IMG/VR virus record: IMGVR_UViG_3300035034_000371
Location: 1 to 49,763 of that record
Length of the DNA: 49,763 nucleotides
Strand: one strand, 5' to 3'
Origin: a virus
Made by a program: the position numbers and the translations under genes. The notes under the pieces are model-generated. The model was not told the origin of the DNA. It saw nothing but the letters and a program-made list of their open reading frames with translations, and ran no database searches. The first letter of the stretch is position 1, and every line of letters starts with the position of its first letter. This document shows positions 1-49,763 of this stretch, piece after piece.

Positions 1-10
1 AGTGTCTAAC
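1..10. repeat. 10-bp terminal direct repeat (circle-closing overlap), left copy
   Basis: agtgtctaac at 1-10 is repeated exactly at 49754-49763. Because one gene reads straight through the joined ends in frame, this is best read as the overlap left when a circular or circularly permuted genome was linearised by assembly, not as a biological terminus. It also counts ten bases twice, so the unique length is 49,753. Confidence 0.8.
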
Positions 11-91
11 TGTTACAAATTCATTATTTTTAAATATAATAACTTTGTTCATCAGTTCGTTTAAGTTTTTTGTATTTGTTTTAATTTTCAT
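1..91 (-). CDS. dnaN: DNA polymerase III beta sliding clamp, N-terminal part (continues at the window's right end)
   Basis: First 30 codons of a leftward gene that leaves the window at position 1. It starts at ATG 91-89 behind an AAGGAT ribosome site supplied by promoter copy 1. Positions 10-1 equal positions 49763-49754. If the ends are joined through that 10-bp overlap, the reading frame continues without a stop into 49753-48750, giving a protein of about 364 residues, the usual size of a bacterial beta clamp (E. coli 366). The N-terminus (MKIKTNTKNLNELMNK) resembles the first strand and helix of clamp domain 1. See the entry at 48750-49763 for the diagnostic motifs. Confidence 0.85.
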   Translation of the reverse strand, partial: MKIKTNTKNLNELMNKVIIFKNNEFVTVRH

Positions 92-100
92 TTTCTTTAT

Positions 101-190
101 CCTTTTTTGCTTTCTGGTTTAACTTACAAGATTAATTATGCGCTGACTAAATTGTAAAGTAAATACTTTTTATAAAATAATTTAAAATAT
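101..190 (-). promoter_or_regulatory. Repeated leftward promoter/operator, copy 1 (drives dnaN)
   Basis: Read on the minus strand: -35 TTTACT (complement of 158-163), 17-bp spacer, -10 CATAAT (complement of 135-140), then the common leader (CTTGTAAGTTAAACCAGAAAG) and an AAGGAT ribosome site before dnaN. This is the most divergent of the eight copies. The palindrome over the -10 is imperfect here (TTAATTA then TGCGC then TGACTAA), whereas the others have TAATTAA as the second arm. Regulation of dnaN may therefore be weaker or different. Confidence 0.75.
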
Positions 191-204
191 TTTTAGAAGT
201 AGGT

Positions 205-1059
205 CTACCCGGGGCGATATTTTTGTCGCGGAGTTCCTTGGTTCGTTAGCACCCTCTGGTACTTGTCAAATTCGCACAAACAATGCTCAATATCCCGCAT
301 TTCTAACTTATGCCCTTTAAAAGTGCCTGTATAATCTAATTTTGTTTTTGATAAAGCTAAAAGTTCTTGCATTTCTTGTATCAATTGCCACCGTTTTGTA
401 GGATGTTCTAGGGGTCTACTGTGCAACCTATTTAACCCCCTTTTTGCTCCAGGTCCCGGATTAGCCCACGTATGTATATCAGTACAACTTCCTAGAGTCT
501 TGGTGTGTCTTAGATCGGTGGCTACTTCGTAAGAAATAAACCAACTGTACCCGCGGTACGTATTCAGATACTCACAAAAAGATTCCAAAGTGGTTATAGA
601 TTTTAGATCTTTGGTTATTATTTCCCTGTTTTTAAACATCGGCTCGGCTATCCAGAACAAGGTGTACTCCAGTTTAGGTACTTTATTCCCTCCACAGGTT
701 AGCATATAAGCGCTGCTATATATTTTGTCGCCTCTGTTCTGCCTGTGCATTAGCACGTCATAAGCTTTCTGGGTGTCCCATTTGTCAAAAACTCCGGCGT
801 CTAATAATTCTTGGAGGCTGCCGATTAAATTTATGCGCCTGCATATGCTCAAGTAAAACCAGAGTAAGTCGTGATTAGCGTAGCGTTCTCGTATATGTTT
901 ACGTATCCATATGGTGGTGGTGTCTAATTCTCTGAATACGTTGCAGAACTTATATGCGGCTAAGATAGGGTCATGCGACCAGGGGTAAGCTTCTCCGCTT
1001 TGCTTTTTAAGATAAATATTGTGCCTGGTGGTTATAAAGTTAAAAAATGCATTAGTCAT
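205..1059 (-). CDS. aGPT-PPlase-family DNA base hypermodification protein
   Basis: A 284-residue protein resembling the alpha-glutamyl/putrescinyl-thymine pyrophosphorylase superfamily, clade-3-like. The family includes amino acid:DNA transferases and the helical domain of 5-hydroxymethyl-dU DNA kinase. The signature near the N-terminus is PWSHDPIL (about residues 26-33) followed by YKFCNVFRELD (about 36-46) and TIWI, matching the family pattern PWT-DPIL-YxFxNVxRxxD. Such enzymes act on 5-hydroxymethyl-pyrimidines already in DNA. The start is ATG 1059 in a TAATG overlap with the upstream 79-residue gene, behind GGAG; an ATG four codons upstream has no such site. Here it stands alone, without a fused P-loop kinase. 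Family call is from motif recognition; the exact reaction is not predictable. Confidence 0.72.
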   Translation of the reverse strand: MTNAFFNFITTRHNIYLKKQSGEAYPWSHDPILAAYKFCNVFRELDTTTIWIRKHIRERYANHDLLWFYLSICRRINLIGSLQELLDAGVFDKWDTQKAYDVLMHRQNRGDKIYSSAYMLTCGGNKVPKLEYTLFWIAEPMFKNREIITKDLKSITTLESFCEYLNTYRGYSWFISYEVATDLRHTKTLGSCTDIHTWANPGPGAKRGLNRLHSRPLEHPTKRWQLIQEMQELLALSKTKLDYTGTFKGHKLEMRDIEHCLCEFDKYQRVLTNQGTPRQKYRPG

Positions 1060-1298
1060 TATATGCTCCATGTTATGGTGTATTTGTCGCCGGTGTGTTC
1101 TAGGGTAAACCCTTGTAATTTCAGAATGTCTTTATACAGAATATAATCTTCTTCTTTTATATCGACGCTAAATTCTCCTGCACATGCATGGTCTAATATA
1201 CGTTTAGATAAAAGTGTAGCGGGGTCTACGCTGGGGGTATTGTGGGCAGCGCATGAAATGCTTATATCATAAGCTTTTTTGGCGGTTAGCATGGTCAT
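1059..1298 (-). CDS. Small conserved-looking phage protein, unknown function (79 aa)
   Basis: A small acidic protein between the primase and the hypermodification transferase. It begins behind GAGGGA and ends in a TAATG overlap with the next gene, so the two are translationally coupled. The layout (helix, then GEFSVDIKEED, then a C-terminal GDKYTITW) resembles small alpha/beta proteins common beside replication genes in phages. I do not recognise a characterised family. Co-translation with the aGPT-PPlase protein is the only functional hint. Confidence 0.75.
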   Translation of the reverse strand: MTMLTAKKAYDISISCAAHNTPSVDPATLLSKRILDHACAGEFSVDIKEEDYILYKDILKLQGFTLEHTGDKYTITWSI

Positions 1299-1300
1299 AT

Positions 1301-3970
1301 TTATCCCTCCCTTGTAGAGTTGATAAACGCTTTAGGTATTTGTACAGCGTCTAGTTTTCTACCCGCAAAAGTTTTATGGCAACAATACCCTTTTCGCATA
1401 CCTGTGTATTTTATTTCTTGTTTTAATACTAACGTGCTGTCACGTAGCATTTTATTAAATAGGTGGCTGGTTGTTGTGGGTTTGCCGTAATTAGATTTAA
1501 AATAATGGTACAGGACTTTTTTCTTAATTGAAATGTAGTCGTCTCCCACTACCACACATTCTTCTTCACCAAACACTGCTTCCCCAGAAAGTAAGTCTAC
1601 AAGTTCGGCTACCGTAGAATTGCTAAAGTCGTTAAACATGCTATCCAGAACGGTGTATCCTGAGTCTTTTATTTCTTCATATAATTCGGTTTTATACATA
1701 TTGTTAATGTTGCGGGTAATGTCGCGGTCTAATAAGTACGCTAAGATAGCTCCAGAAAATTTATTGACATAAAAGTACAGCAGATTAAAATATTTGGCTC
1801 TTTGTTGTATCTTTTCCTGGTCGGTACCTACTGAAGCGTCATATATCTTAAAATAATCTGGAACCCTTAACATGGTATATCTTCTTTCACCCATTACCCC
1901 GTCTATTTCCGCCATATGTTTATGATTTGAAGTTATTATAAAACGGGTAGAATTAGAAATTTGGTAAGCGTCTACCCCTTTAAGTTCTACGCGGACTTTA
2001 CTTTCTGTTATTAGCGAACGTATTTTGCCTGCATTATGTTTTGCTTGCCATTCTATGTCTTCAAACGCCCCTACCAAACAATACGCCATGCTAGCGTTAA
2101 AATCTGAAGTTAGCGAAGAAGTTCCTAAGATTTGTGCATGGTTACCTAGGAGTACATTTAATATATTGAATAATGTAGTCTTACCTGTACCAAATTCGGG
2201 GCTGTACAGTACTAAAGCGGTACCGGGTTTGTGTTCGGGGTTCTGGAATATATCTGCCAGCCAATCTAGTACCCATTCTGCCAACTTCAAATCACCGTTA
2301 CATAATATATGGTCTATGTAGTGCCTAAACTTGTTGACAGCGTTACTGGAGTCCGAATTGTGTATATAGTTAAAATCTGGATCTACCGCGTAGCCCGCAA
2401 AAATATTTAATCTTAAACTATTGGATTGTGACAATCTTATTTTTTCACCTTTTGGGCTGTATTTATTGTAAGGATAAAACGTTTGTCCTGTGTAGCGTTT
2501 AAGCGTAGAAAAATACTTAATTACATATTCACTTGGAGTTAAATTCTTGTTAGCTACATTAGGATCGGGTAAGGTTCCGCTATATCCAAAAAATGCATCA
2601 AAACCTGACGCACCCCTCTTCAGCCGTATAAACTCTACTTCATAACATTTTTGATAGTTGATTTCTTTGGTAGCAGGGTTAGCGATAGGCTTTAAGTTTA
2701 TATGTTCCACCGGTAGCAAAAATTCCAATTGACCTTTGTTTAACATTAAATAGCATCTATCTAATACGAATTTAAGCACCGTGCTAGGGTTCTTTTCCTG
2801 TACTATATCTGTTATTTCCTCTTGGGGTACAAAAGAAAAATCTTTAACGTTAGATATCTGGGTAATATGGGTTTCTATTTCATCAAATTCTTCAGCTATC
2901 TTATCTAACACTTTGGCGTCCCTAGATATTATGTCTAAAGCTTTCTTCTCATTACCATTGTGTGCTAGTTGTATATATAATTTATACGCGTCCCATTGTT
3001 TGGTCTTACCTTTGTCTCTGTGGTGTAAGGGGTCGGTATCGTGGTCACTATGCAGCCATTCACCATTCTCATAAAAACGTATGCCGTTGGCGGAAGTACC
3101 TCCTGTATATGTCCAGCGCTTATTAGGGTTTAATATATCTTCGTAGTCGCTAGGTACATAAGTTCCTTGTCCGTGTATAGCCAGTATATCTATAGCTTTA
3201 TATACGGAATTAAAAGTGCCTTGCATGCCTGACATTTCGCTAGGTAGCACAGAATTAGAGGTGTAGGTAGGGTTATTGCATAATTCGTCAGAAGAAACTA
3301 AATCTTCGGTGTTTATGTACAAGTCCTCACCGGTATTGCAATGGTAAAATTCAAAATTCTGGTCTTTTAGTTTAGCAGGGTTAAACAAAGCAGCGGTTAA
3401 ATTTATACAAACGCTCCTGTCAAATACGGTGTTAGGTTTATCGGGAGCTAAACTCATTAAGTCGCAAAAAGCCACGTATACCTTATCGTATACTACACGG
3501 CTTAATATATTAAATGACAAAGGTACTATGAGCCTATATTTATATAGACCCTCCGAGGGGTTGTGGCTAATTGAAGAATGTATGTAGTAATTTATATTAA
3601 GTTTGCGTAAAGTTGCACGGAGTTTGGATATCGTATTCTCGTTGGCGTAGTCTATGTCGTATGATAGGATATTTCTGAAGCTGAAATGTTCTAGCCTACG
3701 TATATTTTCCCCCTGTTCGGTGTCATTAAAATGCGAACCAACCCAGTAAGGAAGATGGCGCTTACAGGCATCCCGTTTTGTCTTAGGAAGATTAAAATAT
3801 TCTTTGCACGTATATCTGTCTACATTAACCGGGGTTCTAAAAAACTTCAGTAACTCGTGCTTATTCATATTCGTAGACTTAGATAGCCTGGAGTCTTTAG
3901 TTACATTAGTAGAGTCCGGGTGTCTAAACGATATAGTATAGTAGCGGTCATGGGTTTGGATTTTATCCAT
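1301..3970 (-). CDS. Primase-helicase (AEP-type primase fused to a SF3-like/DUF5906 helicase)
   Basis: Large replication protein of about 889 residues that should make primers and unwind DNA at the fork. The N-terminal part resembles archaeo-eukaryotic primases: SYDIDYA near residue 105 (metal-binding hhDhD), followed by SSISHNPSEGLYKYRLIVPL. The C-terminal part is an ATPase with Walker A GTGKTT near residue 595, a Walker B-like AFEDIEW and a sensor stretch RFIITSNHKHMAEIDG. The first ATG (4015) overlaps the -10 of a promoter. ATG 3970, preceded by AAAAAGGACACC, fits better and sits about 40 bases downstream of that -10. The next gene begins two bases after its stop. The fusion is typical of phages with A-family polymerases. 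Confidence 0.85.
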   Translation of the reverse strand: MDKIQTHDRYYTISFRHPDSTNVTKDSRLSKSTNMNKHELLKFFRTPVNVDRYTCKEYFNLPKTKRDACKRHLPYWVGSHFNDTEQGENIRRLEHFSFRNILSYDIDYANENTISKLRATLRKLNINYYIHSSISHNPSEGLYKYRLIVPLSFNILSRVVYDKVYVAFCDLMSLAPDKPNTVFDRSVCINLTAALFNPAKLKDQNFEFYHCNTGEDLYINTEDLVSSDELCNNPTYTSNSVLPSEMSGMQGTFNSVYKAIDILAIHGQGTYVPSDYEDILNPNKRWTYTGGTSANGIRFYENGEWLHSDHDTDPLHHRDKGKTKQWDAYKLYIQLAHNGNEKKALDIISRDAKVLDKIAEEFDEIETHITQISNVKDFSFVPQEEITDIVQEKNPSTVLKFVLDRCYLMLNKGQLEFLLPVEHINLKPIANPATKEINYQKCYEVEFIRLKRGASGFDAFFGYSGTLPDPNVANKNLTPSEYVIKYFSTLKRYTGQTFYPYNKYSPKGEKIRLSQSNSLRLNIFAGYAVDPDFNYIHNSDSSNAVNKFRHYIDHILCNGDLKLAEWVLDWLADIFQNPEHKPGTALVLYSPEFGTGKTTLFNILNVLLGNHAQILGTSSLTSDFNASMAYCLVGAFEDIEWQAKHNAGKIRSLITESKVRVELKGVDAYQISNSTRFIITSNHKHMAEIDGVMGERRYTMLRVPDYFKIYDASVGTDQEKIQQRAKYFNLLYFYVNKFSGAILAYLLDRDITRNINNMYKTELYEEIKDSGYTVLDSMFNDFSNSTVAELVDLLSGEAVFGEEECVVVGDDYISIKKKVLYHYFKSNYGKPTTTSHLFNKMLRDSTLVLKQEIKYTGMRKGYCCHKTFAGRKLDAVQIPKAFINSTREG

Positions 3971-4013
3971 ATATTGGTGTCCTTTTTGCAGTGTTATTTG
4001 GCTTACAGGGGTC

Positions 4014-4042
4014 ATTATAGCTTAAATTAAACCTAAAGTAAA
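4014..4042 (-). promoter_or_regulatory. Variant leftward promoter for the primase-helicase
   Basis: On the minus strand: TTTACT (complement of 4037-4042), 17 bp, TATAAT (complement of 4014-4019). The -35 and spacing match the eight repeated promoters, but the -10 is a perfect consensus and the TTAATTA/TAATTAA palindrome is missing. The -10 runs into the first possible ATG of the primase frame, which is why the start 15 codons downstream is preferred. It may escape whatever binds the palindrome. Confidence 0.6.
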
Positions 4043-4594
4043 TACTATTGTCCAAGTATTTTAAGATTTTTGGTAAATTTTTAACTAAAATTACGTAAAA
4101 ATGTAGTAATAAATTATTTGGAATTTTAATAAAATTTTATACCTTGGATTTTATTAAAAATTAAATATCTTAAATTTTAAAAAGTAAATATTTTATGCAG
4201 GCATAAATATTGAAATAAATATAAAATTTTATTGTAATTTAATAAATTTTTTAACTTAGGTAAACTAATAAAATAATAAGGTTTTAACAGGTTATATAAT
4301 AAAATAATAAATTTATTCACTAATTGCCATAAATTCCATTTTTTGGATTTTTCCAAACTCTACTCTCTAAAAGGTTTGAAAAAAATTTATATTTTATTAT
4401 TTTAGCCGAGCAACGCCTACGCCACCATGGACTGGCGTCGTGAAAAAATTCTATTAAAATTTATTATTTCTATTAAAATTTATTACTACAGGCTCCAAAC
4501 TCCTGAAGGAGCTAGGGTTTTGTAGACATGAGATTTTATAACAGGAATTAAAGGGGGAATTATTAGATTATTACAGATTTGGTAATAAATTAAA
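4043..4594. other. AT-rich non-coding region with repeats and hairpins; candidate replication origin
   Basis: About 550 bases without a credible gene, immediately upstream of the primase-helicase. Most of it is A/T runs. It contains a perfect hairpin TTTGGA-TTTT-TCCAAA (4342-4357), a G+C-rich hairpin ACGCCA-N8-TGGCGT (4419-4438), two 18-bp direct repeats TTCTATTAAAATTTATTA (4449-4466 and 4468-4485), and a hairpin CTCC-TGAA-GGAG (4500-4511). A degenerate agtaaatatttt near 4182 resembles the repeated promoter. A DNA-unwinding region with iterons beside the initiator/primase is a common origin layout, but a structured leader RNA or terminator is also possible. Confidence 0.45.
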
Positions 4595-5113
4595 CTACGC
4601 CATAATTTTAGAAATTAAAGTGCGTACACGGTGTACTTCGTCGTCTCCTAAGATTTTATTTCCAATTTTACGATTTTCTTGTATTTTAACATTTATAACT
4701 TCTAGCCACCTGTCCACCAGGTCTTTAGCTTTGTGCTCACCGTGGTTAGTATAGCGGTCAGCACAATATACCACCCCCTCTAACATATCTGACAATTTCA
4801 CCACTACTTTTTCTAACGGTGTTAATTTATACGTTATCCCATTTTCGGACTCAAATACTTTTTCTATGCCGTCTAACAATACTTTTATACTAGGGTAGCT
4901 GCGTTTGGTTGTAAATGGTACGTCTCCTGTACGTACTTCAGCACAGTCGTGCGTCAAAGCTTTTAGAACCGCTTGAGTAGATATACTTGGAAGTATGTAA
5001 GCCGCTATAAGGCTAACCCCCCACGAGTGTTCTGATATAGTTTGAGGTTTTACGCCTATCACAGCATGGTATCTTTCTACCCCTCCGCTGTGCAGTATAT
5101 TTAATATATTCAT
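4595..5113 (-). CDS. HD-domain phosphohydrolase, YfbR-like 5'-deoxynucleotidase
   Basis: A 172-residue HD-superfamily protein close in pattern to E. coli YfbR, which removes the phosphate from deoxynucleoside 5'-monophosphates. Metal ligands are visible: H29 in SEHSWGV, H55-D56 in THDCAEVRTGDVP and D109 in LSDML. E59 matches the YfbR catalytic Glu. The YfbR substrate-selective Arg-Trp pair appears here as R14-Y15. In this phage it could remove competing dNMPs (dTMP, dCMP or dUMP) as part of the base-modification programme, or simply feed nucleotide salvage. It lies upstream of the candidate origin, in the unit started by promoter copy 2. Confidence 0.8.
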   Translation of the reverse strand: MNILNILHSGGVERYHAVIGVKPQTISEHSWGVSLIAAYILPSISTQAVLKALTHDCAEVRTGDVPFTTKRSYPSIKVLLDGIEKVFESENGITYKLTPLEKVVVKLSDMLEGVVYCADRYTNHGEHKAKDLVDRWLEVINVKIQENRKIGNKILGDDEVHRVRTLISKIMA

Positions 5114-5148
5114 ATTTTATCGTCCTTTAGGTGGTTTAGTATTATTAT

Positions 5149-5517
5149 TTAAATGTAGTGGATAGAAACTACTTCGTCATTTTCGTCTATTACCGCTCTT
5201 ACATCAAAGAGTTTAGTACTGTTAAAACCTCCGTCAGTATGAGTAAAGGCTACATGGACTGCAATCCATACATTAGTAACTTCCAATTCTATGTCATAAT
5301 CGTCTACTATTATAGTTTCTTTAGAAATACCACCGTTAAAATGGGTTATATTTAATTTTTCAAAGATTACAGGGGTAGTTTGAAAATCTTCTGATTGTAG
5401 GCGCACTATATTATACTTAGGGCATACTTCAAATTGTATAAGCTTAGCTTTGAAACCTCTTTTGATTAGTTCTGCTTGTACCAAAGTTTTTAAATTGTTT
5501 GTAGCTGTATTGTTCAT
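5149..5517 (-). CDS. Hypothetical protein (122 aa)
   Basis: First gene after promoter copy 2, starting behind AAGGAAAAAT. It appears to be mixed alpha/beta with a strand-rich C-terminal half (IELEVTNVWIAVHVAFTHTDGG). It has no cysteine pairs, membrane segment or catalytic motif that I recognise. It is probably an early gene and is followed 35 bases later by the HD phosphohydrolase. Confidence 0.7.
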   Translation of the reverse strand: MNNTATNNLKTLVQAELIKRGFKAKLIQFEVCPKYNIVRLQSEDFQTTPVIFEKLNITHFNGGISKETIIVDDYDIELEVTNVWIAVHVAFTHTDGGFNSTKLFDVRAVIDENDEVVSIHYI

Positions 5518-5524
5518 TTTATTT

Positions 5525-5643
5525 TTCCTTTTTTGCTTTCTGGTTTAACTTACAAGATTAATTATGTACTAATTAAATTGTAAAGTAAATACTTTTTATA
5601 AAATAATTTAAAATAATTTAAAAATAATTTAAAAATAATTTAG
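5525..5643 (-). promoter_or_regulatory. Repeated leftward promoter/operator, copy 2
   Basis: Minus strand: TTTACT (complement of 5584-5589), 17 bp, CATAAT (complement of 5561-5566), overlapped by the perfect 7-bp-arm palindrome TTAATTA-TGTAC-TAATTAA (5558-5576). Upstream of the -35 lie several units of the AT-rich motif taatttaaaaa, like an UP element. The leader ends in a Shine-Dalgarno site for the 122-residue gene. Confidence 0.85.
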
Positions 5644-5657
5644 CGTTCCTGCAATTA

Positions 5658-6077
5658 CTACAGCCATAAAGATGTATGCAAACACAGGCAGTCTTCACTG
5701 GTAGCTCCAACAGGTTCTATCTTAGGCACCTCCTTAATAATAGTTAACTCATGAAGACGAATATTATTTGTATTGTGGTTTACATAGTCCGCTGAGTATC
5801 CAAGGGCATCACCAGTGCATTTTATTGTAGCGCTTATATTTTCTTGGGGGTACTTTATTTGTAAAGCATGTTGTATCATTTTTATTTTATCAAAATCTTT
5901 ATCACTAGATATTTCTACCGTGAAATGTATACCAGCAGTAATGACTCCATGCTTATCGTAGACTAGATCGGGCTTACCACCTAATTCAACCCTGCAACCC
6001 TCTGGGGTAGTTGTTACAAAGATTAGATTTTTTATGTTGTCGTTTGTGTCAGTTATCGCGATTGTTTCTTTTTTCAT
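5658..6077 (-). CDS. Hypothetical early protein (139 aa)
   Basis: The single gene between promoter copies 3 and 2. It starts at ATG 6077 behind AAGGAAAAAT. It appears strand-rich, with a middle section (GIHFTVEISSDKDFDKIKM) that could be one alpha/beta domain. No motif is recognised. Its own promoter and separation from other genes suggest an independently dosed early protein, for example a host-takeover factor, but that is inference. Confidence 0.7.
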   Translation of the reverse strand: MKKETIAITDTNDNIKNLIFVTTTPEGCRVELGGKPDLVYDKHGVITAGIHFTVEISSDKDFDKIKMIQHALQIKYPQENISATIKCTGDALGYSADYVNHNTNNIRLHELTIIKEVPKIEPVGATSEDCLCLHTSLWL

Positions 6078-6086
6078 TTTTATTTT

Positions 6087-6180
6087 TCCTTTCTGGTTTA
6101 ACTTACAAGATTAATTATGTACTAATTAAATTGTAAAGTAAATACTTTTTATAAAATAATTTAAAAATAATTTAAAATTT
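6087..6180 (-). promoter_or_regulatory. Repeated leftward promoter/operator, copy 3
   Basis: Minus strand: TTTACT (complement of 6137-6142), 17 bp, CATAAT (complement of 6114-6119), with the TGTAC-centred palindrome over the -10. About two taatttaaaaa units lie upstream. The leader with AAGGAAAAAT precedes the 139-residue gene. Confidence 0.85.
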
Positions 6181-6205
6181 ATATCCGGGGTAGGTTTGCA
6201 GCTGC

Positions 6206-6487
6206 TTAAAATCCCATTACTTTCATTATTCTTACCTGGTAAATATGCGCACGGTACGGATTATGGCTCTTAGCAATATTTCGATAGTTCCTTAAACTTA
6301 TAGCGGTCGCTGTGTGTACCAACTCAGAACCGTTTGCAACTTTAGCCACAACCACCATTGCCTTAGGATCGGCGTCTACTCTGTAAATGTTGGCGCCAAG
6401 TAACAACTTTTCACCTTTATATAGAAACTGGGTGTATGTATCGGTAACATACAACTTGGTAATTTTAAGATCGTTAAATGTTTCCAT
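6206..6487 (-). CDS. Hypothetical early protein (93 aa)
   Basis: First leftward gene at the divergent control region, started by promoter copy 4. The sequence is basic and strand-rich (TKLYVTDTYTQFLYKGEKLLLG, then VVVAKVANGSELVHTATAISLRNY), suggesting a small beta-barrel or SH3-like fold, perhaps binding nucleic acid. That is only an impression; no family is recognised. Confidence 0.65.
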   Translation of the reverse strand: METFNDLKITKLYVTDTYTQFLYKGEKLLLGANIYRVDADPKAMVVVAKVANGSELVHTATAISLRNYRNIAKSHNPYRAHIYQVRIMKVMGF

Positions 6488-6496
6488 TTTATTTTT

Positions 6497-6595
6497 CCTT
6501 TCTGGTTTAACTTACAAGATTAATTATGCGCTAATTAAATTGTAAAGTAAATACTTTTTATAAAATAATTTAAAAATAATTTAAAAATAATTTAA
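6497..6595 (-). promoter_or_regulatory. Repeated leftward promoter/operator, copy 4
   Basis: Minus strand: TTTACT (complement of 6546-6551), 17 bp, CATAAT (complement of 6523-6528). The palindrome arms are perfect but the centre is TGCGC instead of TGTAC, as in copy 1. Upstream are two to three AT-rich units. This is the rightmost copy of the left cluster and faces away from the late genes. The 56 bases up to the terminase start contain a short palindrome ttaactgttaa (about 6609-6619) and a weak TATATA, but no convincing late promoter. Confidence 0.85.
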
Positions 6596-6651
6596 CGTTC
6601 CTACTTTTTTAACTGTTAAATAACTTTACTTTTTATATAGAGGGTACCATA

Positions 6652-7047
6652 ATGTATACTATCATAAATCATTTTAAACGCTTATGCATGACTTCTTCCA
6701 ATCTTAGTATTATCAGCGTACAAGCTAAAATAGACGAATATTTTAGCGACTGTGATATCCATGAGAAAACCCCGACAGCTAATGGTCTGGCGTACTTCTT
6801 AGGTATGACTTACGAAGAATTTATGAATTATGCTAAAGATCCGCAAATACACAAATCTAAAGATCATGTTAGAATAATGTCCATGGCTAAAACAAGATTA
6901 GCGGCGTTGTGGGAAGAAAAATTAGCTGGTAAACATAATAAAGCCGATTTCTGGTTAAAACAAATGCAGAAATGGGACAAAGAAAACCAAGACACCTCGT
7001 CACAATCACTGGTTATAAACATAGACAGCGACGATGCCAAGCTTTAA
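6652..7047 (+). CDS. terS: Terminase small subunit
   Basis: A 131-residue protein at the head of the late block, recognising phage DNA for packaging together with the large subunit it overlaps by 14 bases. It has the usual pattern: KIDEYF, then TPTANGLAYFLGMTYEEFMNYA (helix-turn-helix-like), then RIMSMAKTRLAALWEEKLAGKHNKADFWLKQMQKWDKE, typical of small-terminase C-terminal helices. The start at 6652 is supported by GAGGG seven bases upstream; the internal Met at codon 13 has no ribosome site. Confidence 0.8.
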   Translation: MYTIINHFKRLCMTSSNLSIISVQAKIDEYFSDCDIHEKTPTANGLAYFLGMTYEEFMNYAKDPQIHKSKDHVRIMSMAKTRLAALWEEKLAGKHNKADFWLKQMQKWDKENQDTSSQSLVINIDSDDAKL

Positions 7048-8281
7048 GAAAACCACTACACAAGTCGCAGCAACCAAGCTACACACCAAACCGGCTCTAC
7101 ATACTATGCTATACGGCGGCAGTAGGTCTGGGAAGACTTTTATAAGCGTCCGGAATATACTGTTACGTGCGCTAAAATGCAAAAGCAGACACTTAATACT
7201 GAGACTAAGGTTTAATCATTTAATTACATCTGTATGGCACGACACCTTGCCTAAAGTGATAGATTTGTGCTTTAAAGGGTTAGAAATTAAATGGAATAAA
7301 TCTGCGTACTTTATAGAATTTGCTAATGGGTCGCAGATATGGTTTGGAGGCTTGGATGACAAGGCAAGAGTAGAGAAAATCTTAGGTAACGAATACTCCA
7401 CTATATATTTAAATGAATGTTCGCAGTTATCTTACGACGCTATAAATGTAGCTATTACCAGGTTGGCAGAAAAAACCGAATTAAATTTAAAAATGTATTA
7501 CGATTGCAACCCTCCTAGCAAAAGCCACTGGACATATAAGCTTTTTAAATTAAAGAAAGACCCAGTAACTAATGAAGCTTTAAATAACCCTGAAGATTAC
7601 GACAGTATTTTAATGAACCCTAAAGACAACATAGAGAATATAGGGGACTCCTATATCGACCGAGTTTTGAAGTCTTTAAGCAAAAAAGATAGATTAAGAT
7701 TTGAATTAGGAGAATTTACTAGTGACACTGAGGGAGCGCTATGGAATTTAGATCTAATAATAAAAGCCCAAGCGATAGAACCTTTTGAAGCTTCTAATAT
7801 TGTGGTATCCGTAGATCCTGCAGTAACCAACAACGAAGACTCTGACTTAACAGGTATAATAGTGTTAGAAAGTAACGGTAAACAGGCTAATATCTTAGCG
7901 GATTATTCTTTAAAAGCCTCCCCTAACGAGTGGGCTACGGTGGTTATTAATGTTTATGAAAAATATCAAGCTAACTACATAGTCGCTGAAGTTAACCAAG
8001 GTGGAGATCTTGTAGAAAGTATATTAAAATCTAAGAACAATAATATAATAGTGAAAAAAGTTAGGGCTAGCAAGGGGAAATTCGCAAGAGCGGAACCTAC
8101 TTTAGCCCTTTACGAACAGAATAAAATACACCACGCCCCAGGGTTAAGCAAGCTAGAAGAAGAAATGACGGATTACACGCCGCATAACAGCAAGAAGTCC
8201 CCTGACAGATTAGATGCGTTAGTGTGGGGGCTTACCGACACCATATTAGACCGTAAAGAACAGAGAGTTTTTGTATTATGA
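7034..8281 (+). CDS. terL: Terminase large subunit (ATPase/nuclease)
   Basis: A 415-residue packaging motor. Walker A is GGSRSGKT (residues 28-35) and Walker B is STIYLNECSQLSY. The C-terminal RNase H-like nuclease shows VVSVDPAVTNNEDSD, the AEVNQGG strand and the final DRLDALVWG acidic motif. Length and motif order fit phage large terminases of the PBSX/terminase_6 kind. It overlaps the small subunit at its start and shares ATGA with the portal gene at its end. The TGA stop in that overlap is one of many that argue for the standard genetic code. Confidence 0.93.
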   Translation: MPSFKKTTTQVAATKLHTKPALHTMLYGGSRSGKTFISVRNILLRALKCKSRHLILRLRFNHLITSVWHDTLPKVIDLCFKGLEIKWNKSAYFIEFANGSQIWFGGLDDKARVEKILGNEYSTIYLNECSQLSYDAINVAITRLAEKTELNLKMYYDCNPPSKSHWTYKLFKLKKDPVTNEALNNPEDYDSILMNPKDNIENIGDSYIDRVLKSLSKKDRLRFELGEFTSDTEGALWNLDLIIKAQAIEPFEASNIVVSVDPAVTNNEDSDLTGIIVLESNGKQANILADYSLKASPNEWATVVINVYEKYQANYIVAEVNQGGDLVESILKSKNNNIIVKKVRASKGKFARAEPTLALYEQNKIHHAPGLSKLEEEMTDYTPHNSKKSPDRLDALVWGLTDTILDRKEQRVFVL

Positions 8282-9576: not shown

Positions 9577-10318
9577 ACAATTAGCTATGGCGCACAATAG
9601 TGACAAATCTAAGAAAATTAAGTACGAAACAGGCTTAATAATCGTGATGCGGAGATTTTTTAAGAAAGTAGCTAATGACCTGGAAAAAGCTTACGCGTCA
9701 AATCAACAAATCATAGACCCTGTAATATACTCCGAAGAACTTTACAACCTCTTACGCCAACACTATTTAAAAGTTCAAAAATATTTCAGCACTTATGTAT
9801 ATCAAACACAATTAAGCCCTGGTCAACAAAAATTAGTCAAAGAAAATTCACAAGCTTACGAATATGCTTTGTTAGCCCAAATACCCTCACGGATAAAATT
9901 TATAATAAATACCATAAAGAAAGATATTGCTTTACTTTTTAAAAATAACGCGTTAGAATTAACTCCTAATACTTTTAAAAAGTTATTTTTGCAAGCAGCT
10001 TTTTGGAGAGCCAAACTAATAGGAATTACCGAAACCCAGAATGCCGCCGAATTAAAGAAGCATACCCAAGCCCAATATATATCGGTAGGTTTAGGTATAA
10101 AGCTACTTAAAGTATGGTTCACTATACTGGACGGTCGTGAAAGACCCTGGCATGGTGCGGTGTCCTTACAAAGAACTAGAGGAGACGGATTGTTTACAGT
10201 AGCAGGACAATTTTTATTGCATCCCGGGGATATCACCCATGGAGCTACCGCAGCTAACATATGTAATTGCAGGTGCTCCGCCTTATATTTTTCAGCATCA
10301 CCAATGAACAAGGTTTAA
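9512..10318 (+). CDS. MuF-like head morphogenesis protein
   Basis: A 268-residue minor head protein of the SPP1 gp7/Mu gpF kind, usually attached to the portal inside the procapsid. The diagnostic part is the C-terminus: WFTILDGRERPWHGAV, then FLLHPGDITHGATA and the closing NICNCRC motif. The start at 9512 overlaps the portal by 65 bases and is supported by AGGAGGAG nine bases upstream. It makes the N-terminus a Thr-Gln-Pro repeat read from the same DNA that encodes Asp-Thr-Thr in the portal. An internal ATG at MAHNSD is a weaker alternative. Confidence 0.82.
   Translation: MTQPTQPTQPTQPTQPTQPTNRQLAMAHNSDKSKKIKYETGLIIVMRRFFKKVANDLEKAYASNQQIIDPVIYSEELYNLLRQHYLKVQKYFSTYVYQTQLSPGQQKLVKENSQAYEYALLAQIPSRIKFIINTIKKDIALLFKNNALELTPNTFKKLFLQAAFWRAKLIGITETQNAAELKKHTQAQYISVGLGIKLLKVWFTILDGRERPWHGAVSLQRTRGDGLFTVAGQFLLHPGDITHGATAANICNCRCSALYFSASPMNKV
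9514..9567 (+). repeat. Six tandem 9-bp repeats (GACACAACC) coding in two frames
   Basis: Six perfect copies of GACACAACC followed by a partial GAC. In the portal frame each unit is Asp-Thr-Thr; in the MuF frame it is Thr-Gln-Pro. Because the unit is a multiple of three, gain or loss by slippage keeps both frames open, so length variation between isolates is likely. Confidence 0.95.
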
Positions 10319-10326
10319 CACAATCT

Positions 10327-11364: not shown

Positions 11365-11381
11365 TATAGAGTATAATATAA

Positions 11382-11409: not shown

Positions 11410-11469
11410 AGTTTGATTTTTGTAGCAATACCCAACGCAGACACCCACAAAGACAACTAGGAGTAACAA

Positions 11470-38818: not shown

Positions 38819-40801
38819 TTAGTCTTTTCTATATCTGTATGAACAAAATCCTTCAGCCCCTAGAGGTAGTGACTTAGCCCACGGTGGATTAGCTAACATT
38901 AATTCTGTTTGTCGGGCTAATTCTTCTTTTTTGTCTAATTCACACACTATTTCATCGTGTACGTGAAAAGACACTTTAAAATCATTGTCCATAAGTTGTT
39001 TTATCGCATACATTAATAAATCCCTTGCGGCTGCTTGGCATATATTCTCTACTAATTTACCTCCCCAGGTTCTTTCTGACCACCAGTTAATCCCTTTCTC
39101 AGCGGTATACTGTAAAGCTCCGTCATGGACTTTAGCTTGAGGGTAGCATAAAGTTCTACCGCTGGGCAGTTTGCAAAATAAATCACCTCTTATAACTTTG
39201 TATACTACCGTACCGAACCTAGGATTTCCAACTTTGTACGCCCTGCCTTGAGACCATACCGCGTTCTTAGCCGCATTCTCTAACTCACGCCATAGTACGC
39301 AAATATTAGAATACTTTCTCCTAAAAATGTTTATATGTTGTGACGCCTCTTGCTCAGTTAAAGCTACTCCTAAAGCTTCTGCATATCTTAGTAGTCCTTT
39401 CGCAGAAAGTCCAAAACCCGCACCCAATGTCACAGGTTTACATATAAATCTTTGTTGTTTAGTTACGTCTTCATACTTTACTTTGTATATCTCGGTAGCC
39501 ATATCTTTGTATTGATCGAAACCTGCTTCAAAGTTATCTAAAGCTTCTTTATCTCCCGCAAACCAACACACCAACCTATTCTCTATACTAGAATAATCTA
39601 CTACGCCTAGTATCCCGTCCGGGGGGGCTATTATAGACTGTCGTAACCCCTCGCTCAACACTTTTATTATAGAAGTGTCTATATCGCTGAGAGTATTTAT
39701 ATCCCCTTTTTTAATCGCTGATATAGCTTCTGCAGATAGTTCTTTACCTCTAGGGTAATTATGTATCTGGACTCGTCTACCTGCAAATCTTCCTGTTCTT
39801 GTTGCACCTAAGAATTGAATAGTCCCTTGTATTCGGTTTTCTGTGCTGCACCCGTTAGCCATGACTTTGTATTTGGCTACACTACTTAGCCCTAAATTTT
39901 GTCGTATTTTTAAAGCTTTAACAGCCAAGGAGTCCGGAGAAACTTCTGTCTGATCTCTTAGGTACTCTTGTATAGTGGCTTTCTGTAAATTTAAAACATT
40001 ACATCCCTGGGTTTTTAACCACGATATAAATACGCTGACTTTTTTAGCGGAGTCTACCGCACCCTGCGTAACTTCTTTTAATTCTTGTAGTTGTAATCTC
40101 TCATATTCTTTTACTAAAGACACCGCGCCTGAGCAGTATTCTTTATCTATCAAAAACCCTCTTGAATTTATTAAGCTATCGTAGCTCCAGTAGTTTTGTT
40201 CTTCAGGAAGTATATTCTCACTAGGTAGATGGGCTACAATAGTTCTCTGACTGACTACATCTTGTTTGCAGTAATCAATTAGTTCTACAAAAGCTTCTTT
40301 ATCGTCCTTTGGTAAAATTCGGGTGGAGAGGTTCGTCAAAGTAGGCTTTCTGGGTATGCTAAATTTCCTCAATAGCGCTTTACCTTTTAAACTCTTTAAA
40401 CGCTCTACAGGGAGACCAAGAGCCTGACCGCATCTTTGCAAAGATAAAGGTCTAGCAAAATAAGCGGCTACCGCCATATCGTCCACCCATATAGATACCG
40501 GTACGTCTGGGAAGTTATATTTCTTAGTTGCTACATTCTCCCATATAGCTCTTTCAAAATTAGCATTCCAAGCGCGCAGCCTGCATTCATTAGAATTTAT
40601 TAAGGACACCAATCTCTCAAATTGTTTAGTGTCTGTAGGGTAACAGTCGTTATCGCTACTCCACACGTAGGTTTCTTCTTCCTTTCCAAAAGAAAAAGCC
40701 ATGCAGAGTACCTCACAAGACTCGTGAGAAGAATATAGCCATACACCCTGAGTTATGTCCTCTGAACAATATGTTTCAAAGTCTATGCTTACATCTATCA
40801 T
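38819..40801 (-). CDS. A-family DNA polymerase with 3'-5' exonuclease domain
   Basis: A 660-residue replicative polymerase. Exonuclease motifs: SIDFETYCSED near the start (Exo I), AWNANFERAIWEN (Exo II) and DYCKQDVVSQ (Exo III). Polymerase motifs: VVDYSSIENRLVCWF (motif A, metal-binding Asp), KPVTLGAGFGLSAKGLLRYA (motif B region) and SFHVHDEIVCEL (motif C, HDE). There is no 5' nuclease domain, normal for phage replicative A-family enzymes. It lies in the usual cluster with DUF2815, DUF2800, VRR-NUC and SNF2 genes. The genome also encodes a beta clamp that it may use. Confidence 0.95.
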   Translation of the reverse strand: MIDVSIDFETYCSEDITQGVWLYSSHESCEVLCMAFSFGKEEETYVWSSDNDCYPTDTKQFERLVSLINSNECRLRAWNANFERAIWENVATKKYNFPDVPVSIWVDDMAVAAYFARPLSLQRCGQALGLPVERLKSLKGKALLRKFSIPRKPTLTNLSTRILPKDDKEAFVELIDYCKQDVVSQRTIVAHLPSENILPEEQNYWSYDSLINSRGFLIDKEYCSGAVSLVKEYERLQLQELKEVTQGAVDSAKKVSVFISWLKTQGCNVLNLQKATIQEYLRDQTEVSPDSLAVKALKIRQNLGLSSVAKYKVMANGCSTENRIQGTIQFLGATRTGRFAGRRVQIHNYPRGKELSAEAISAIKKGDINTLSDIDTSIIKVLSEGLRQSIIAPPDGILGVVDYSSIENRLVCWFAGDKEALDNFEAGFDQYKDMATEIYKVKYEDVTKQQRFICKPVTLGAGFGLSAKGLLRYAEALGVALTEQEASQHINIFRRKYSNICVLWRELENAAKNAVWSQGRAYKVGNPRFGTVVYKVIRGDLFCKLPSGRTLCYPQAKVHDGALQYTAEKGINWWSERTWGGKLVENICQAAARDLLMYAIKQLMDNDFKVSFHVHDEIVCELDKKEELARQTELMLANPPWAKSLPLGAEGFCSYRYRKD

Positions 40802-43973: not shown

Positions 43974-44351
43974 TTATTTTAAACTTTTTAGGTGATTTGT
44001 TACGTGGTCACCACACATGTTGCCATATACAGATTTTTCGTTATCTTTTAAAATTTCTTCTAATTCGGACTCTACTAGCATTAAATAGCACCTTAGATCT
44101 CTTATATCGTCTAATAATGTTTCCGGGTGAATATTTTTTAAAGTTTCTGATATTCGTATGGCGTCAAAAATGTTATAGCTATTGTTTTGTACCTGGTTCT
44201 CTATTCTATCCCATTTCCGGGCTAACATCATAAATGCTCCTACTCCTCCTCTCTTTTTCCAAGAGTCCCCGTAGGTTTTGCCTTTTTCTACTAAAGTGTG
44301 GAGGTCAGAGTTTTGCATACTTATCAGTATTTTTCTAGTTTTTTCTTCCAT
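43974..44351 (-). CDS. Nmad1 (DUF1599) nucleotide-modification-associated protein
   Basis: A 125-residue protein with the family core KGKTYGDSWKKRGGVGAF-MMLARKWDRIENQ at about residues 23-53, followed by a helical part (IFDAIRISETLKNI; DIRDLRCYLMLVESELEEIL). This domain was defined by its frequent presence in phage operons for modified DNA bases; its biochemical role is not established, though the fold resembles MazG-like nucleotide-handling helices. It is the last gene of the unit containing the glycosyltransferase and thymidylate synthase homologue, which supports a role in making or policing modified nucleotides. Confidence 0.8.
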   Translation of the reverse strand: MEEKTRKILISMQNSDLHTLVEKGKTYGDSWKKRGGVGAFMMLARKWDRIENQVQNNSYNIFDAIRISETLKNIHPETLLDDIRDLRCYLMLVESELEEILKDNEKSVYGNMCGDHVTNHLKSLK

Positions 44352-44430: not shown

Positions 44431-45432
44431 TCACCACCTTACACACGCTTCAGACCATTCATACGGAGGTAATTCTTCTTGTAAGATGCGTATAGCTTTG
44501 TCTATATCTTTTCCTACTTTGTATACGTAGTAAGCTTTTAACATATGTGACAAACGTATGCAAAATTCATTAGTCAAGTTTAATTTGCTCATGTCCATTT
44601 TAACAAAATTTTCTAGGCAATAATCAAAGCCCATAAAAAATCTACACAAATCTGAGTCGAGTTTTTCATATTTTATCAAGGTTCTAAGATGGCTGTGGTG
44701 TTTATAGGAACTAGATGGATCTGAAAATAATTGTTCGGTCTTGGGGTTTTCTAGGTAAGTGTGTAAATTGCAAGATACCATATACATGGAGTTCGTGGCA
44801 AACCCTGCACCATCGGCGACATATTGGTGGATAGCGTTAAAATGTACTGGATTGGTTCCTGTAACACCGCCCCATATAGCATCGTTAGATCTATTGTACA
44901 CAAACATATCCAATTTTTTAGTTTCTAGCGGACTCCCAGGGGTCATATTTCTTTGGAATATTATTTGGGTGTTACATGCTTTATCTTTAGTAAGTGATGT
45001 TAAGTCCGTAGCGTCCCATATTTGGCATACCGCTTGACGAGAGTCTGGGTCTGCTTTTAAAATGTCTATAGCTTCTTTTAATTGGTCTACCCCGAAGTGT
45101 TTACGTAGTCTATATCCGTATGCGGCGTTAAATGTTTCCCCATCGTCAGAATAGTCCGCCATTCTCTTATTAAAAAATGTTAAGAATTTTACGTCCCTCC
45201 TGCCTGCAAGCATCCAAGCTGCTTCCATTATTGTAAAAAATGGGTTAATGTTACGGACTGTTGAAGAACATACTGTTTCCAACGGATATTTAAATTTGCA
45301 TACACTTATCCCTGGTAGCTTTAACGCTGCACCGTTTCTGCTGGGAGTATGTACTCCTTTATCACGTAATGCTGGGTAAACTTGGTTACCCATTTTGTCT
45401 AAGCTCGTAGCCTTATAGTAGTTGCAAGACAT
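44431..45432 (-). CDS. Thymidylate synthase / pyrimidine hydroxymethylase family enzyme
   Basis: A 333-residue member of the thymidylate synthase fold. Visible residues: DPDSRQAVCQIWD (R132, phosphate binding), KACNTQIIFQ with catalytic C153, YNRSNDAIWGG (R181) and NPVHFNAI with N194 aligned to the dUMP-selective Asn, and CNLHTY (H224, Y226). The SRQAV and SNDxIWG forms are more like phage dUMP/dCMP hydroxymethylases than host ThyA. It probably makes 5-hydroxymethyl-dUMP (or -dCMP) for incorporation into DNA; dTMP synthesis is the alternative. Its start overlaps the upstream 57-residue gene by 20 bases. Confidence 0.85.
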   Translation of the reverse strand: MSCNYYKATSLDKMGNQVYPALRDKGVHTPSRNGAALKLPGISVCKFKYPLETVCSSTVRNINPFFTIMEAAWMLAGRRDVKFLTFFNKRMADYSDDGETFNAAYGYRLRKHFGVDQLKEAIDILKADPDSRQAVCQIWDATDLTSLTKDKACNTQIIFQRNMTPGSPLETKKLDMFVYNRSNDAIWGGVTGTNPVHFNAIHQYVADGAGFATNSMYMVSCNLHTYLENPKTEQLFSDPSSSYKHHSHLRTLIKYEKLDSDLCRFFMGFDYCLENFVKMDMSKLNLTNEFCIRLSHMLKAYYVYKVGKDIDKAIRILQEELPPYEWSEACVRW

Positions 45433-45590: not shown

Positions 45591-46391
45591 CTACCCTCCA
45601 AAAGAATGTTGATATGCTTTCTTCCAAGATATAACTACGTCGGTTCTTTCTTTACCTCCCCACGCTGTTTTAGTTTGCTTCTTAACTAACTTCACGAATT
45701 CTGGATATCTTTCGTGTAAAGCTTTTGCACATTGCTCGTGGTATTCTAATGTTCTGTATTCGCTACATCCTCCTGGAGAATTGCTACCTCCAGATTGGTT
45801 ATGGGCGTAATTAACCAACATAACAGGGCGTATTTTATAGTTCAATATAAAGTTTAATTGTCTGTCAAAATCTTCCATAGCCCCTAGTGCCGACATCTCC
45901 TCTACTCCTAGTTCTTTCAAGGCTGTTATATTTAAAGCGTGAAATCGTGTCATTCTTTTCCCGTCTATGGTCACTTTATGTAGCGCCTGTCCGAGTTGAT
46001 TGTATCCCTCACGACTTACCATACCTAGATATTCCTTGCTGTCTAACGCTCCCGCTACTAAGATGAGTAAAGCTTGCATATCTTTGGGGCTAACAGGTTT
46101 TAAATGCCAGTCTCCTTTTTCTATTTGTTTGTAGAATTTCAAGTCGTCATCTAACAAGAGTATTTTCCCCGTGAAATTCTGGTATACTTTTTCTACGGTG
46201 TCTCCAAAATTATTAACTTCTGAGTCTTTTACTACAAAAAACTTCACACCGGAATTCTCTAAAGATTTTTTGTATAAGTCTTCTTCAGAGTCCCTTACTA
46301 CAATGTACGTGCTACTTCTCCATTCTTGGGGTATGTAGGATAAAGTATGTACTTTATTAGCTCTTTTGTAACTCGGTATTATTATTTTCAT
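45591..46391 (-). CDS. TET-associated-type glycosyltransferase (TAGT-like)
   Basis: A 266-residue GT-A-like transferase. MKIIIPSYKRANKVHTLSYI at the N-terminus and the acidic metal/sugar-nucleotide motif LLLDDDLKF (residues 78-86) are typical. C-terminal family-like stretches are NYAHNQSGGSNSPGGCSEYR, HERYPEFVKLVKKQ and DVVISWKKAYQ. Members of this family in phages glycosylate 5-hydroxymethyl-pyrimidines in DNA. No TET/JBP oxygenase or cytosine methyltransferase is seen here, so the acceptor hydroxymethyl group would come from the neighbouring hydroxymethylase. Cell-surface glycosylation is a less likely alternative. Confidence 0.75.
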   Translation of the reverse strand: MKIIIPSYKRANKVHTLSYIPQEWRSSTYIVVRDSEEDLYKKSLENSGVKFFVVKDSEVNNFGDTVEKVYQNFTGKILLLDDDLKFYKQIEKGDWHLKPVSPKDMQALLILVAGALDSKEYLGMVSREGYNQLGQALHKVTIDGKRMTRFHALNITALKELGVEEMSALGAMEDFDRQLNFILNYKIRPVMLVNYAHNQSGGSNSPGGCSEYRTLEYHEQCAKALHERYPEFVKLVKKQTKTAWGGKERTDVVISWKKAYQHSFGG

Positions 46392-48749: not shown

Positions 48750-49763
48750 TTACAATCTTATTGGCATTATAATATGCATTTCTCTGTCATTATCATCTGG
48801 TAATATTACGATTGGTTTATCATTACTATCATAATTTAGAATTACATTTTTAGTTTTAATAGTTTTTAATACGTCTAAAATATATTTTAACTTTACACAT
48901 AAGATAATCGGTTTATCTGTAACATTGTCTAATTTAAAATTTGTTTTAAATATATCTTGAGCATCATTTTTAATCTTAAATTCAATGTTGTCATTTTCGA
49001 TATTGAATATTATAGCATCATATTGATCAGTTAAATTTTTAAGCTTTGATAGTTTAGCAAGTATATTTTTTCTATCTATTGTTACATTATTTCTTGTCGC
49101 GAGGTTGGGTGTAACTTTTTCATATTCAACATACCTACCCTCTATTGCTTTAAATTTATAGCTAGAACCATACGTATCATACATATTAAATGTAATATGT
49201 TGCTCATTTGTATGGAACCCAATTCTATGAGTATTACTTCCTGCTGTCTTTAAAATTTTTATAATTGTATTAACATCTTCGGTGGGTATAATAAAGCTTT
49301 CACAATTACAATTTTCTCTACTCATAGAATTAACAGCCATTCTATGCCCATCTGAAGCAACCAAATTTAATTTATCATCTTTAAAATCAAAATATACACC
49401 ATTTAAAAATGGTCTTATATCATTCTTTGTTTTTAAATAACTTACACTTTCTAATTTTTCAAGTAATTCTTTACCGTTTATTAAAGTGTCATGTTCGTAA
49501 GTATTTGATAAACCATCAATATGTTTTAACTCTTCTTTAAATTCCACTATTGTTTTTGAGGCTTCATGTTTTAATGATGTTGAAGTTATAGAAATATCTT
49601 GGTTTTCTTCATCTACTAATAATGAAATAAATGATTTTAATGTTTTATGTTTTAATGTTATAGATTGATCATCTTCATGTTCCTGTTCAACATATAAACC
49701 AACTTTACTAAATCTTGCACCATCTGTTGTAGTTAATGTTAAATAATAAGTATAGTGTCTAAC
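48750..49763 (-). CDS. dnaN: DNA polymerase III beta sliding clamp (body of the gene; N-terminus at 1-91)
   Basis: Reading leftward from 49763, the frame is open to the stop at 48750 and joins the 91-1 segment through the 10-bp overlap, giving about 364 residues. Diagnostic motifs are VASDGHRMAV (cf. TDGHRLA in bacterial clamps) and the C-terminal IIMPIRL, almost the universal MPMRL ending. Length covers all three clamp domains. A GTG at 49547 could start a shorter form but would remove domain 1. It should encircle DNA as a processivity factor for the phage (or host) polymerase. Coding is visibly more AT-rich than most leftward replication genes. Confidence 0.9.
   Translation of the reverse strand, partial: VRHYTYYLTLTTTDGARFSKVGLYVEQEHEDDQSITLKHKTLKSFISLLVDEENQDISITSTSLKHEASKTIVEFKEELKHIDGLSNTYEHDTLINGKELLEKLESVSYLKTKNDIRPFLNGVYFDFKDDKLNLVASDGHRMAVNSMSRENCNCESFIIPTEDVNTIIKILKTAGSNTHRIGFHTNEQHITFNMYDTYGSSYKFKAIEGRYVEYEKVTPNLATRNNVTIDRKNILAKLSKLKNLTDQYDAIIFNIENDNIEFKIKNDAQDIFKTNFKLDNVTDKPIILCVKLKYILDVLKTIKTKNVILNYDSNDKPIVILPDDNDREMHIIMPIRL
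49754..49763. repeat. 10-bp terminal direct repeat, right copy
   Basis: Identical to positions 1-10; see the left copy. Dropping these ten bases and joining 49753 to 1 restores an uninterrupted dnaN reading frame. Confidence 0.8.

Follow-up and report, generated by a model that had tools for sequence, protein, structure and literature searches.

The window analyzed here, i.e., the whole 49,763-nucleotide stretch of viral DNA, carries at 205..1059 on the minus strand an ORF of 284 amino acids belonging to the HMUDK_hel (aGPT-PPlase1) family, which we call hel. The longest version of the ORF extends from 205 to 1071(-) and encodes 288 amino acids from its first ATG; 1071 is thus an alternative start, but the start at 1059 is favored because it overlaps the stop codon of the preceding gene (TAATG) and has a GGAG 6 nt upstream. 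Positions 3-277 of the 281 in PF18723 (HMUDK_hel) match with a score of 172.5 bits (E 1.6e-50; the curated cut-off is 25), and phrog_2396 also matches (E 7e-61). An earlier, sequence-only reading had placed 205-1059 in an aGPT-PPlase-like family, and it is indeed a real ORF with a full-length family match. The same reading had named a lack of the family's active-site residues as possible counter-evidence; all eleven family-invariant residues (R16, R47, D50, F178, D186, G206, G208, G212, C266, E267, and K270) are kept. Relatives of hel at E 1e-5 are present in 100 of 50,697 named-phage records, every one less than 60% identical, M6 ORF055 (gp55) being 40.6% identical. A DNA search with positions 1-12000 revealed no close relative of that part among named phages, and no solved structure matches hel by sequence search.

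The two ends of the window (1-10 and 49754-49763) overlap by 10 identical bases; when they are merged, an uninterrupted ORF of 364 amino acids results that matches all three Pfam families of the DNA polymerase III beta clamp. This clamp gene occupies 48750..49763(-) and, past the circular join, 11-91. The end overlap and the joined gene suggest that the record, for which the database carries no completeness value, is a complete circular map, and the absence of a kinase gene carries weight because of this. In M6-like phages, a P-loop kinase phosphorylates 5-hmdU, and ADDT then replaces the phosphate by an amino acid. PF18748, the P-loop of the 5-hmdU kinase, has no match in the window at E<=0.01; a four-member kinase profile has none either, a two-round profile revealed no kinase, and the census kinase profiles had no match even at E<=10 when the window was searched in circular form. 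A Walker A scan of the window likewise found no spare Walker A protein, the P-loop-like sites recognized by patterns and by reading being those of the terminase, an SNF2 gene, and the primase-helicase upstream of hel (1301..4015, minus strand; PF19263, phrog_1156), whose P-loop is not that of a kinase. The second P-loop kinase was therefore rightly reported missing in the sequence-only reading, and the divergent 5-hmdU kinase in another gene that it had named as counter-evidence was not found by profile. A kinase hidden in the window was thus rejected as a candidate by the PF18748, four-member, and two-round profiles and by the Walker A scan. ADDT (PF18724) has no match in the window by the profiles tried, and the same is true of the GT-B and MT profiles.

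What the window does contain is a TAGT-like GT-A glycosyltransferase of 266 amino acids at 45591..46391(-), our proposed catalytic partner of hel, assigned from phrog_842, an AlphaFold2 (AF2) model, and a borderline PF20691 score. Its PF20691 score of 27.3 bits is just under the curated cut-off of 27.5, six of six relatives tested lie over it, and the protein matches phrog_842 (E 9.5e-30) and our A3 profile, which has the window protein among its members (E 4.4e-105). An acidic DxD-type DDD at residues 81-83 is invariant in 27 rows (D81-D83), and the model (pLDDT 93.6) matches many GT-A enzymes in the PDB, with a Foldseek E of 3.8e-8 to AvpGT and a VIA Z of 14.7 to GalNAc-T2; a GT-A fold with an acidic DxD-type motif is thus predicted. 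A ThyA homologue lies at 44431..45432(-) (PF00303, E 1.6e-18) and is 37% identical to M6 gp58, 31% to SPO1 gp29, and 17% to T4 gp42. It has the G-x-N segment common to M6 gp58 and SPO1 gp29 and groups with these two rather than with T4 gp42, so that it is probably a dUMP hydroxymethylase making 5-hmdUMP; this call is pattern-based, not column-based, T4 differing from the others by one residue of spacing. The earlier premise that the job of the kinase still needs doing is probably wrong, because ADDT, the user of the phosphate, is absent as well and the glycosyltransferase in the locus could act without phosphorylation. Asking which activation is missing is then probably the wrong question, since it is the whole kinase/amino-acid branch that is absent from the window.

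Hel and the glycosyltransferase are on the same strand, 3.6 kb apart across the circular join and with other genes between them, and the module runs in the order hel, glycosyltransferase, ThyA homologue, a small conserved gene (43974..44351, minus strand), and family A DNA polymerase (PolA; 38819..40801, minus strand; PF00476, E 3.6e-22). Among the 63 sequences first compared (61 viral loci plus M6 and the window), 59 contain the glycosyltransferase cluster, 60 that of ThyA, 58 that of the usual neighbor PolA, and 56 that of the small gene; the last is absent from M6 and from L048 and L049, which are M6-like. Of the 54 first-scan loci with all five genes, 50 have the same order, and the glycosyltransferase is the next ORF after hel in 49. 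PF18748 is found in 3 of 49 whole records (M6, L048, and L049), and the other 46, window included, carry GT-A. A YfbR-like HD 5'-nucleotidase, a possible pool enzyme, is encoded at 4595..5113(-) (PF12917, E 1.1e-10). Elsewhere in the window, a short repeat at 9512-9576 reads TDTTDT where the portal gene (8278-9576; Phage_portal) ends and TQPTQP where the next, overlapping ORF starts; two adjoining small genes at 30105-30781 have what by eye look like lipoprotein leaders (CGCS and ASCS) and a membrane-like C-terminal stretch.

A census of hel partners drew on one viral collection, scanned five times with hel, to which the window, ctUhy936, and six hel-bearing named phages were added. The first scan took all 61 relatives, whereas each of the other four took the top 80 out of 546-579 confirmed ones. 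The result was a set of 376 sequences, 375 of them with hel (the exception is ctUhy936), in 191 clusters at 90% identity. Partners were sought at E 1e-5 within ~6-10 kb around hel, less at contig ends, and the partner counts are therefore lower bounds; the span was wider for the window (all of it) and for LuckyBarnes (50,000 of its 50,774 bases). Searches of whole records covered 49 of the 63 first sequences and ten named phages for PF18748 (M6 being in both sets), 37 records for PF18724, 26 for the profiles of kinase and GT-A, and, for those of GT-B and MT, the window, LuckyBarnes, and ctUhy936 only. The kinase profile was seeded by M6 gp54, L049, and two P-loop proteins from Abidjanvirus that are under the PF18748 cut-off, that of Ab19 scoring over Pfam's Zeta_toxin cut-off. 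Four of the six GT-B seeds pass a Pfam cut-off (Glycos_transf_1 or Glyco_trans_1_2), a fifth falls short, and the sixth is unmatched; the MT-like partner is under its cut-off (Methyltransf_23, 24.8 against 27).

The 191 clusters comprise 51 with a kinase, 59 with GT-A, 26 with GT-B, two with both GT-A and GT-B, 29 with an MT-like gene, and 24 with none of these. A kinase is found together with any other class in none of the 191 (Fisher p 3e-28, uncorrected for descent), and the census kinase profile has no match in the 61 GT-A-linked clusters. ADDT occurs in 31/51 kinase clusters, 0/116 glycosyltransferase or MT clusters, and 1/24 of those with no partner (L154). The ThyA homologue is present in 173 of the 191 clusters. 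As a control, the HD gene, whose profile matches in 84/191, shows no exclusion (27/51 kinase clusters versus 54/116 with another partner; p 0.50). Every partner is on the same strand as hel (169/169 cluster-partner pairs), and its frame is within 300 bp of hel in 38/51 cases for the kinase, 30/61 for GT-A, 20/28 for GT-B, and 29/29 for MT. Hel does not occur in one frame with a kinase, GT-A, GT-B, MT, ADDT, or ThyA in any of the 375 loci. A reciprocal test started from the best 80 of 364 confirmed GT-A loci, ranked by the window glycosyltransferase and falling into 29 clusters. In 28 of these, both hel and the ThyA homologue lie in the stretch fetched, which extends for up to 10 kb on each side, and the remaining one is a fragment of 4.3 kb. 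In all 29 MT clusters, the MT-like gene is upstream of hel (e.g., L172:6057-6977); judged by this gene, the product of that class would be a methylated hydroxymethyl-dU.

The exclusion holds for one kinase family, as it was profiled in the census. Other small Walker-A proteins within 5 kb of hel and on its strand occur in 4/116 glycosyltransferase or MT clusters (3/59 GT-A, 1/26 GT-B, 0/2 double, and 0/29 MT), in 5/24 clusters with no partner, and in 6/51 kinase clusters, there beside the kinase. Nearest to exceptions are two proteins that are thymidylate-kinase-like by motif in loci with hel and GT-A, at 6591-8149 of phage Quartz (L068) and at L184:11127-11708. The Quartz record annotates a thymidylate kinase beside a TAGT (43.2 bits), this kinase being without a Pfam match at E 0.01. 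Should these proteins phosphorylate 5-hmdU in DNA, both would break the rule; the simpler guess is that they act in making 5-hmdUTP. Phage ctUhy936 (L065/L071), complete by its record, carries the HD gene and a ThyA homologue along with GT-A, and no hel was found in its genome; hel is therefore not always needed, and this phage is a natural case for judging whether such a glycosyltransferase can act by itself.

In ten of the 24 clusters with no partner, the sequence fetched ends no more than 3 kb from hel. The 24 also include a TAGT (L156), a sub-threshold glycosyltransferase-like protein (L230), a methyltransferase (L155), a P-loop nucleotide kinase 3 (L171), a thymidylate-kinase-like protein (L141, the same phage as L287), and an APS-kinase locus (L231), all of which were excluded from the partner counts. 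On the contig of the last (L102:596-3022), hel is flanked by PIG-L deacetylase-, APS-kinase-, and sulfotransferase-like genes, the sulfotransferase-like one falling under Pfam's cut-off, followed by a ThyA homologue; this gene set would possibly give an aminosugar or sulfated thymine decoration. A row at L149:6983-11685 consists of hel, a GT-B-like gene (under the Pfam cut-off), a gene like the L102 sulfotransferase, a radical-SAM-looking gene, and a ThyA homologue, the sulfotransferase-like and radical-SAM labels being given by eye.

The eleven hel residues from R16 to K270 are, with gaps left out, 100% conserved to two decimals in the kinase, GT-A, GT-B, and MT classes and in the class with no partner. 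Different residues, each at 75% or more in its class, distinguish two classes at three positions only, all of them between GT-A and MT. Such class-wide identity fits a constant task and a common substrate better than it does a task specific to each partner. Note that the hel proteins of LuckyBarnes, Montesquieu, and Quartz are without D198 and without the WAN motif before GPG. The AF2 model of hel (pLDDT 95.2) aligns by VIA-align with PUGT, the ADDT of PaMx11 (8z2n), with a Z of 11.2 and an rmsd of 4.0 over 217 residues, and with MjOgg bound to DNA (3knt) with a Z of 10.3; glycosylases make up most of the 50 rows listed, and queuine salvage enzymes also reach 10.3. With Foldseek alone, nothing in the PDB reached E<=0.001. 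In viral predicted structures, the best matches are hel proteins, with one ADDT protein at E 4.2e-3, and comparison of the hel and ADDT sequence profiles by hhalign was not significant (28 columns). The predicted fold resembles PUGT and DNA glycosylases (a candidate HhH-GPD fold), a Z near 11 being modest for a mostly helical model.

We consider the odds somewhat in favor of hel being a shared subunit that presents the 5-hmdU of DNA to a transferase that can be exchanged, which in the window would be a glycosyltransferase yielding a base-J-like glycosylated thymine. The ThyA homologue would make 5-hydroxymethyl-dUMP, and the polymerase would build 5-hmdU into DNA, replacing some or all of the thymidine. 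Hel would then recognize 5-hmdU in the duplex and present the base, probably flipped out, to the partner enzyme. In the M6-like branch, this partner would be the P-loop kinase, after which ADDT would swap the phosphate for an amino acid; in the branch of the window, the TAGT-like glycosyltransferase would glycosylate the hydroxymethyl group directly, and neither kinase nor ADDT would therefore be needed. We infer four elements here: the hmdU substrate, the flipping of the base, the contact between hel and its partner, and the identity of the sugar. A glycosyltransferase might need a helper, considering that T4 beta-GT glucosylates duplex 5-hmU only when it is mispaired with G, and not opposite A, C, or T (PMC4111573).

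It is also conceivable, if unlikely, that hel is itself an enzyme performing one common reaction on 5-hmdU DNA, much like ADDT within its own branch, with the kinase, glycosyltransferase, or methyltransferase acting before or after it, unaided. The predicted likeness to the catalytic PUGT/ADDT fold would suit this, as would the charged invariant residues D50, D186, E267, and K270 and the fact that the same residues occur in every partner class. It fits less well with the fusion of kinase and hel in SBSphiC, and with the kinase never standing beside the other classes in the sample, as if all competed for one slot.

Partners could instead simply track phage lineage, hel and the glycosyltransferase being old members of a replication module without a joint function. 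Most first-scan GT-A loci do belong to one syntenic lineage, and partner labels are strongly clustered on a tree of the 191 hel domains (built by a quick method, with long branches noted); the exclusion p value is also uncorrected for descent. Nevertheless, the labels change 41 times on this tree: GT-A 22 times (at least 14 forced by the starred branches), the kinase 17 (at least 7), GT-B 12 (at least 9), and MT once; between kinase and other classes, at least 15 changes are required among classified rows. Independent pairs taken over all rows numbered seven starred, with 4.6 on average opposite and none the same way (median p 0.0625); with classified rows, six of six were opposite (p 0.031), an opposition forced by the exclusion itself. 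The clade of the window has a support of 99 and five rows, two with GT-A (the window and L073) and three with GT-B (L072, L085, and L142); because it mixes the two, the nearest relatives have swapped glycosyltransferase fold. These many switches without overlap, the lack of exclusion for the HD gene, and the recurrence of the module in the otherwise dissimilar genomes of the window, L051, and LuckyBarnes make a mere effect of lineage decidedly improbable. We give very little credence to a hidden or host kinase that activates 5-hmdU, with hel or another protein then transferring some group, such as an amino acid, and the glycosyltransferase unrelated: many window genes are without recognized function, the searches were confined to the phage record, and this kinase group can diverge under Pfam's cut-off (14.1 bits in Ab19 and 17.9 in AIIMS-Plu-RaNi), but the broader profiles were negative, the window has no spare Walker A protein and no ADDT, and GT-A-linked loci are free of the kinase both by PF18748 (0/46 records) and by the census profile (0/61 clusters).

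For the reading of hel as a presenter to a partner, we count the SBSphiC fusion, the exclusion of partners and its absence in the HD control, the distribution of ADDT, the common strand, the repeated switches, the reciprocal test, the constancy of residues, the fold, and the behavior of T4 beta-GT; against it, we count that no hel is fused to a glycosyltransferase or MT, that ctUhy936 is without hel, the 3.6-kb gap, the Quartz kinase, the kinase seeds under the PF18748 cut-off, the lack of D198 and WAN in three hel proteins, the modest Z, the null results of hhalign and Foldseek, and the TAGT enzymes that may act on an already glucosylated base. What was observed are the genes themselves, the lack of kinase and ADDT by profile, the way partners co-occur or exclude one another across the sampled loci, and the residues invariant in all classes; the likeness of fold is a prediction. 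A more general statement, which we offer tentatively as a little short of an even chance, is that the 'kinase helical domain' does not belong to the kinase as such and is a general presenter of 5-hmdU that forms a core with the dUMP hydroxymethylase, that its partners (P-loop kinase, GT-A, GT-B, MT-like, and perhaps APS kinase/sulfotransferase) were exchanged many times while the core residues of hel remained constant, and that the phage of the window has glycosylated thymine resembling base J, formed along a pre-replicative route. A kinase domain without a kinase would thereby become a testable rule, with one DNA-binding part serving several chemistries. If this is true, gene order predicts the thymine modification of a phage (phosphate/amino acid, sugar, or methyl), the frequent occurrence of hel without a kinase is accounted for, and parts become available for writing chosen groups on duplex 5-hmdU; many environmental phages, including pelagiphage-like ones, would be probable carriers of glycosylated thymine.

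The superfamily and some of its gene neighborhoods were reportedly described by Iyer et al. in 2013; the key papers are those of Lee in 2018 and 2021 for the M6 pathway and that of Wen in 2024 for PUGT. Among the papers listed by searches of an open-licence library, most of them judged by their listing, none was recognized as describing partner exchange; this is weak evidence of novelty, the main pathway papers and most subscription papers lying outside that library. Part of the hel synteny is already published, for HTVC023P-type pelagiphages (PMC9599517): as in the window, a TS is near aG/PT-PPlase1 in Clades V, VIII, and IX, and one clade has a nucleotidase and a beta-glucosyl-HMC-alpha-glucosyltransferase in the aG/PT-PPlase1 region. 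The available part of that account takes the gene set as M6-like thymidine hypermodification and mentions neither the missing kinase nor partner exchange nor mechanism. Purified M6 5-hmdU DNA kinase is stated, as an unpublished result, to modify TG dinucleotides in SP8 DNA (PMC6449724), and a 5-HMUDK from an unspecified phage is reported to be inactive on 5-hmC (PMC6457204). An aGPT-PPlase domain is also listed by DefensePredictor among predicted, unvalidated defence domains (PMC13092281).

The thymidine hypermodification cassette of Pseudomonas phage M6 (gp51-gp58) resembles the window in having hel (gp55), a ThyA homologue, an HD nucleotidase, and PolA nearby, but it differs in that a P-loop kinase (gp54, PF18748) adjoins hel and in the presence of ADDT (gp51), a PLP-type enzyme, Nmad5, and a radical-SAM-like enzyme (under Pfam's cut-off); the window, in contrast, has GT-A, and kinase and ADDT are absent by profile. 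SN1, a near M6 relative, has a cassette of pyrimidine hydroxymethylase, Nmad5, aGPT-PPlase1, nucleotide kinase, rSAM, PLP enzyme, and aGPT-PPlase2 (PMC9476957). The fused kinase-helical protein of the sequence-only reading does exist, although not as the general form. In Bacillus phage SBSphiC, found in a collection other than that of the 375-locus census, kinase and hel form one ORF of 636 amino acids with PF18748 and PF18723, whereas the window hel stands alone; the C-terminal hel of SBSphiC (PF18723, E 1.3e-45) shares the GPG and CES-K core residues with it. SP10 has a fused 5-hmdU DNA kinase of 637 amino acids, judged by name and length. Kinase and hel are separate genes in M6 and PhiSH19, and also in Ab19, whose kinase-like P-loop is under Pfam's cut-off. 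The Brevibacterium phage LuckyBarnes is like the window in having a ThyA homologue, TAGT-like glycosyltransferases, and hel in one run (gp38-gp41), and it has no PF18748 or ADDT match; it is unlike the window in its deep hel branch and its two tandem glycosyltransferases. Certain TAGT enzymes are believed to glycosylate glucosyl-hmC, so adding a second sugar, and not to act on the base itself (PMC13390438), and a second glycosyl step is therefore possible where there are two glycosyltransferases, as in LuckyBarnes and L073.
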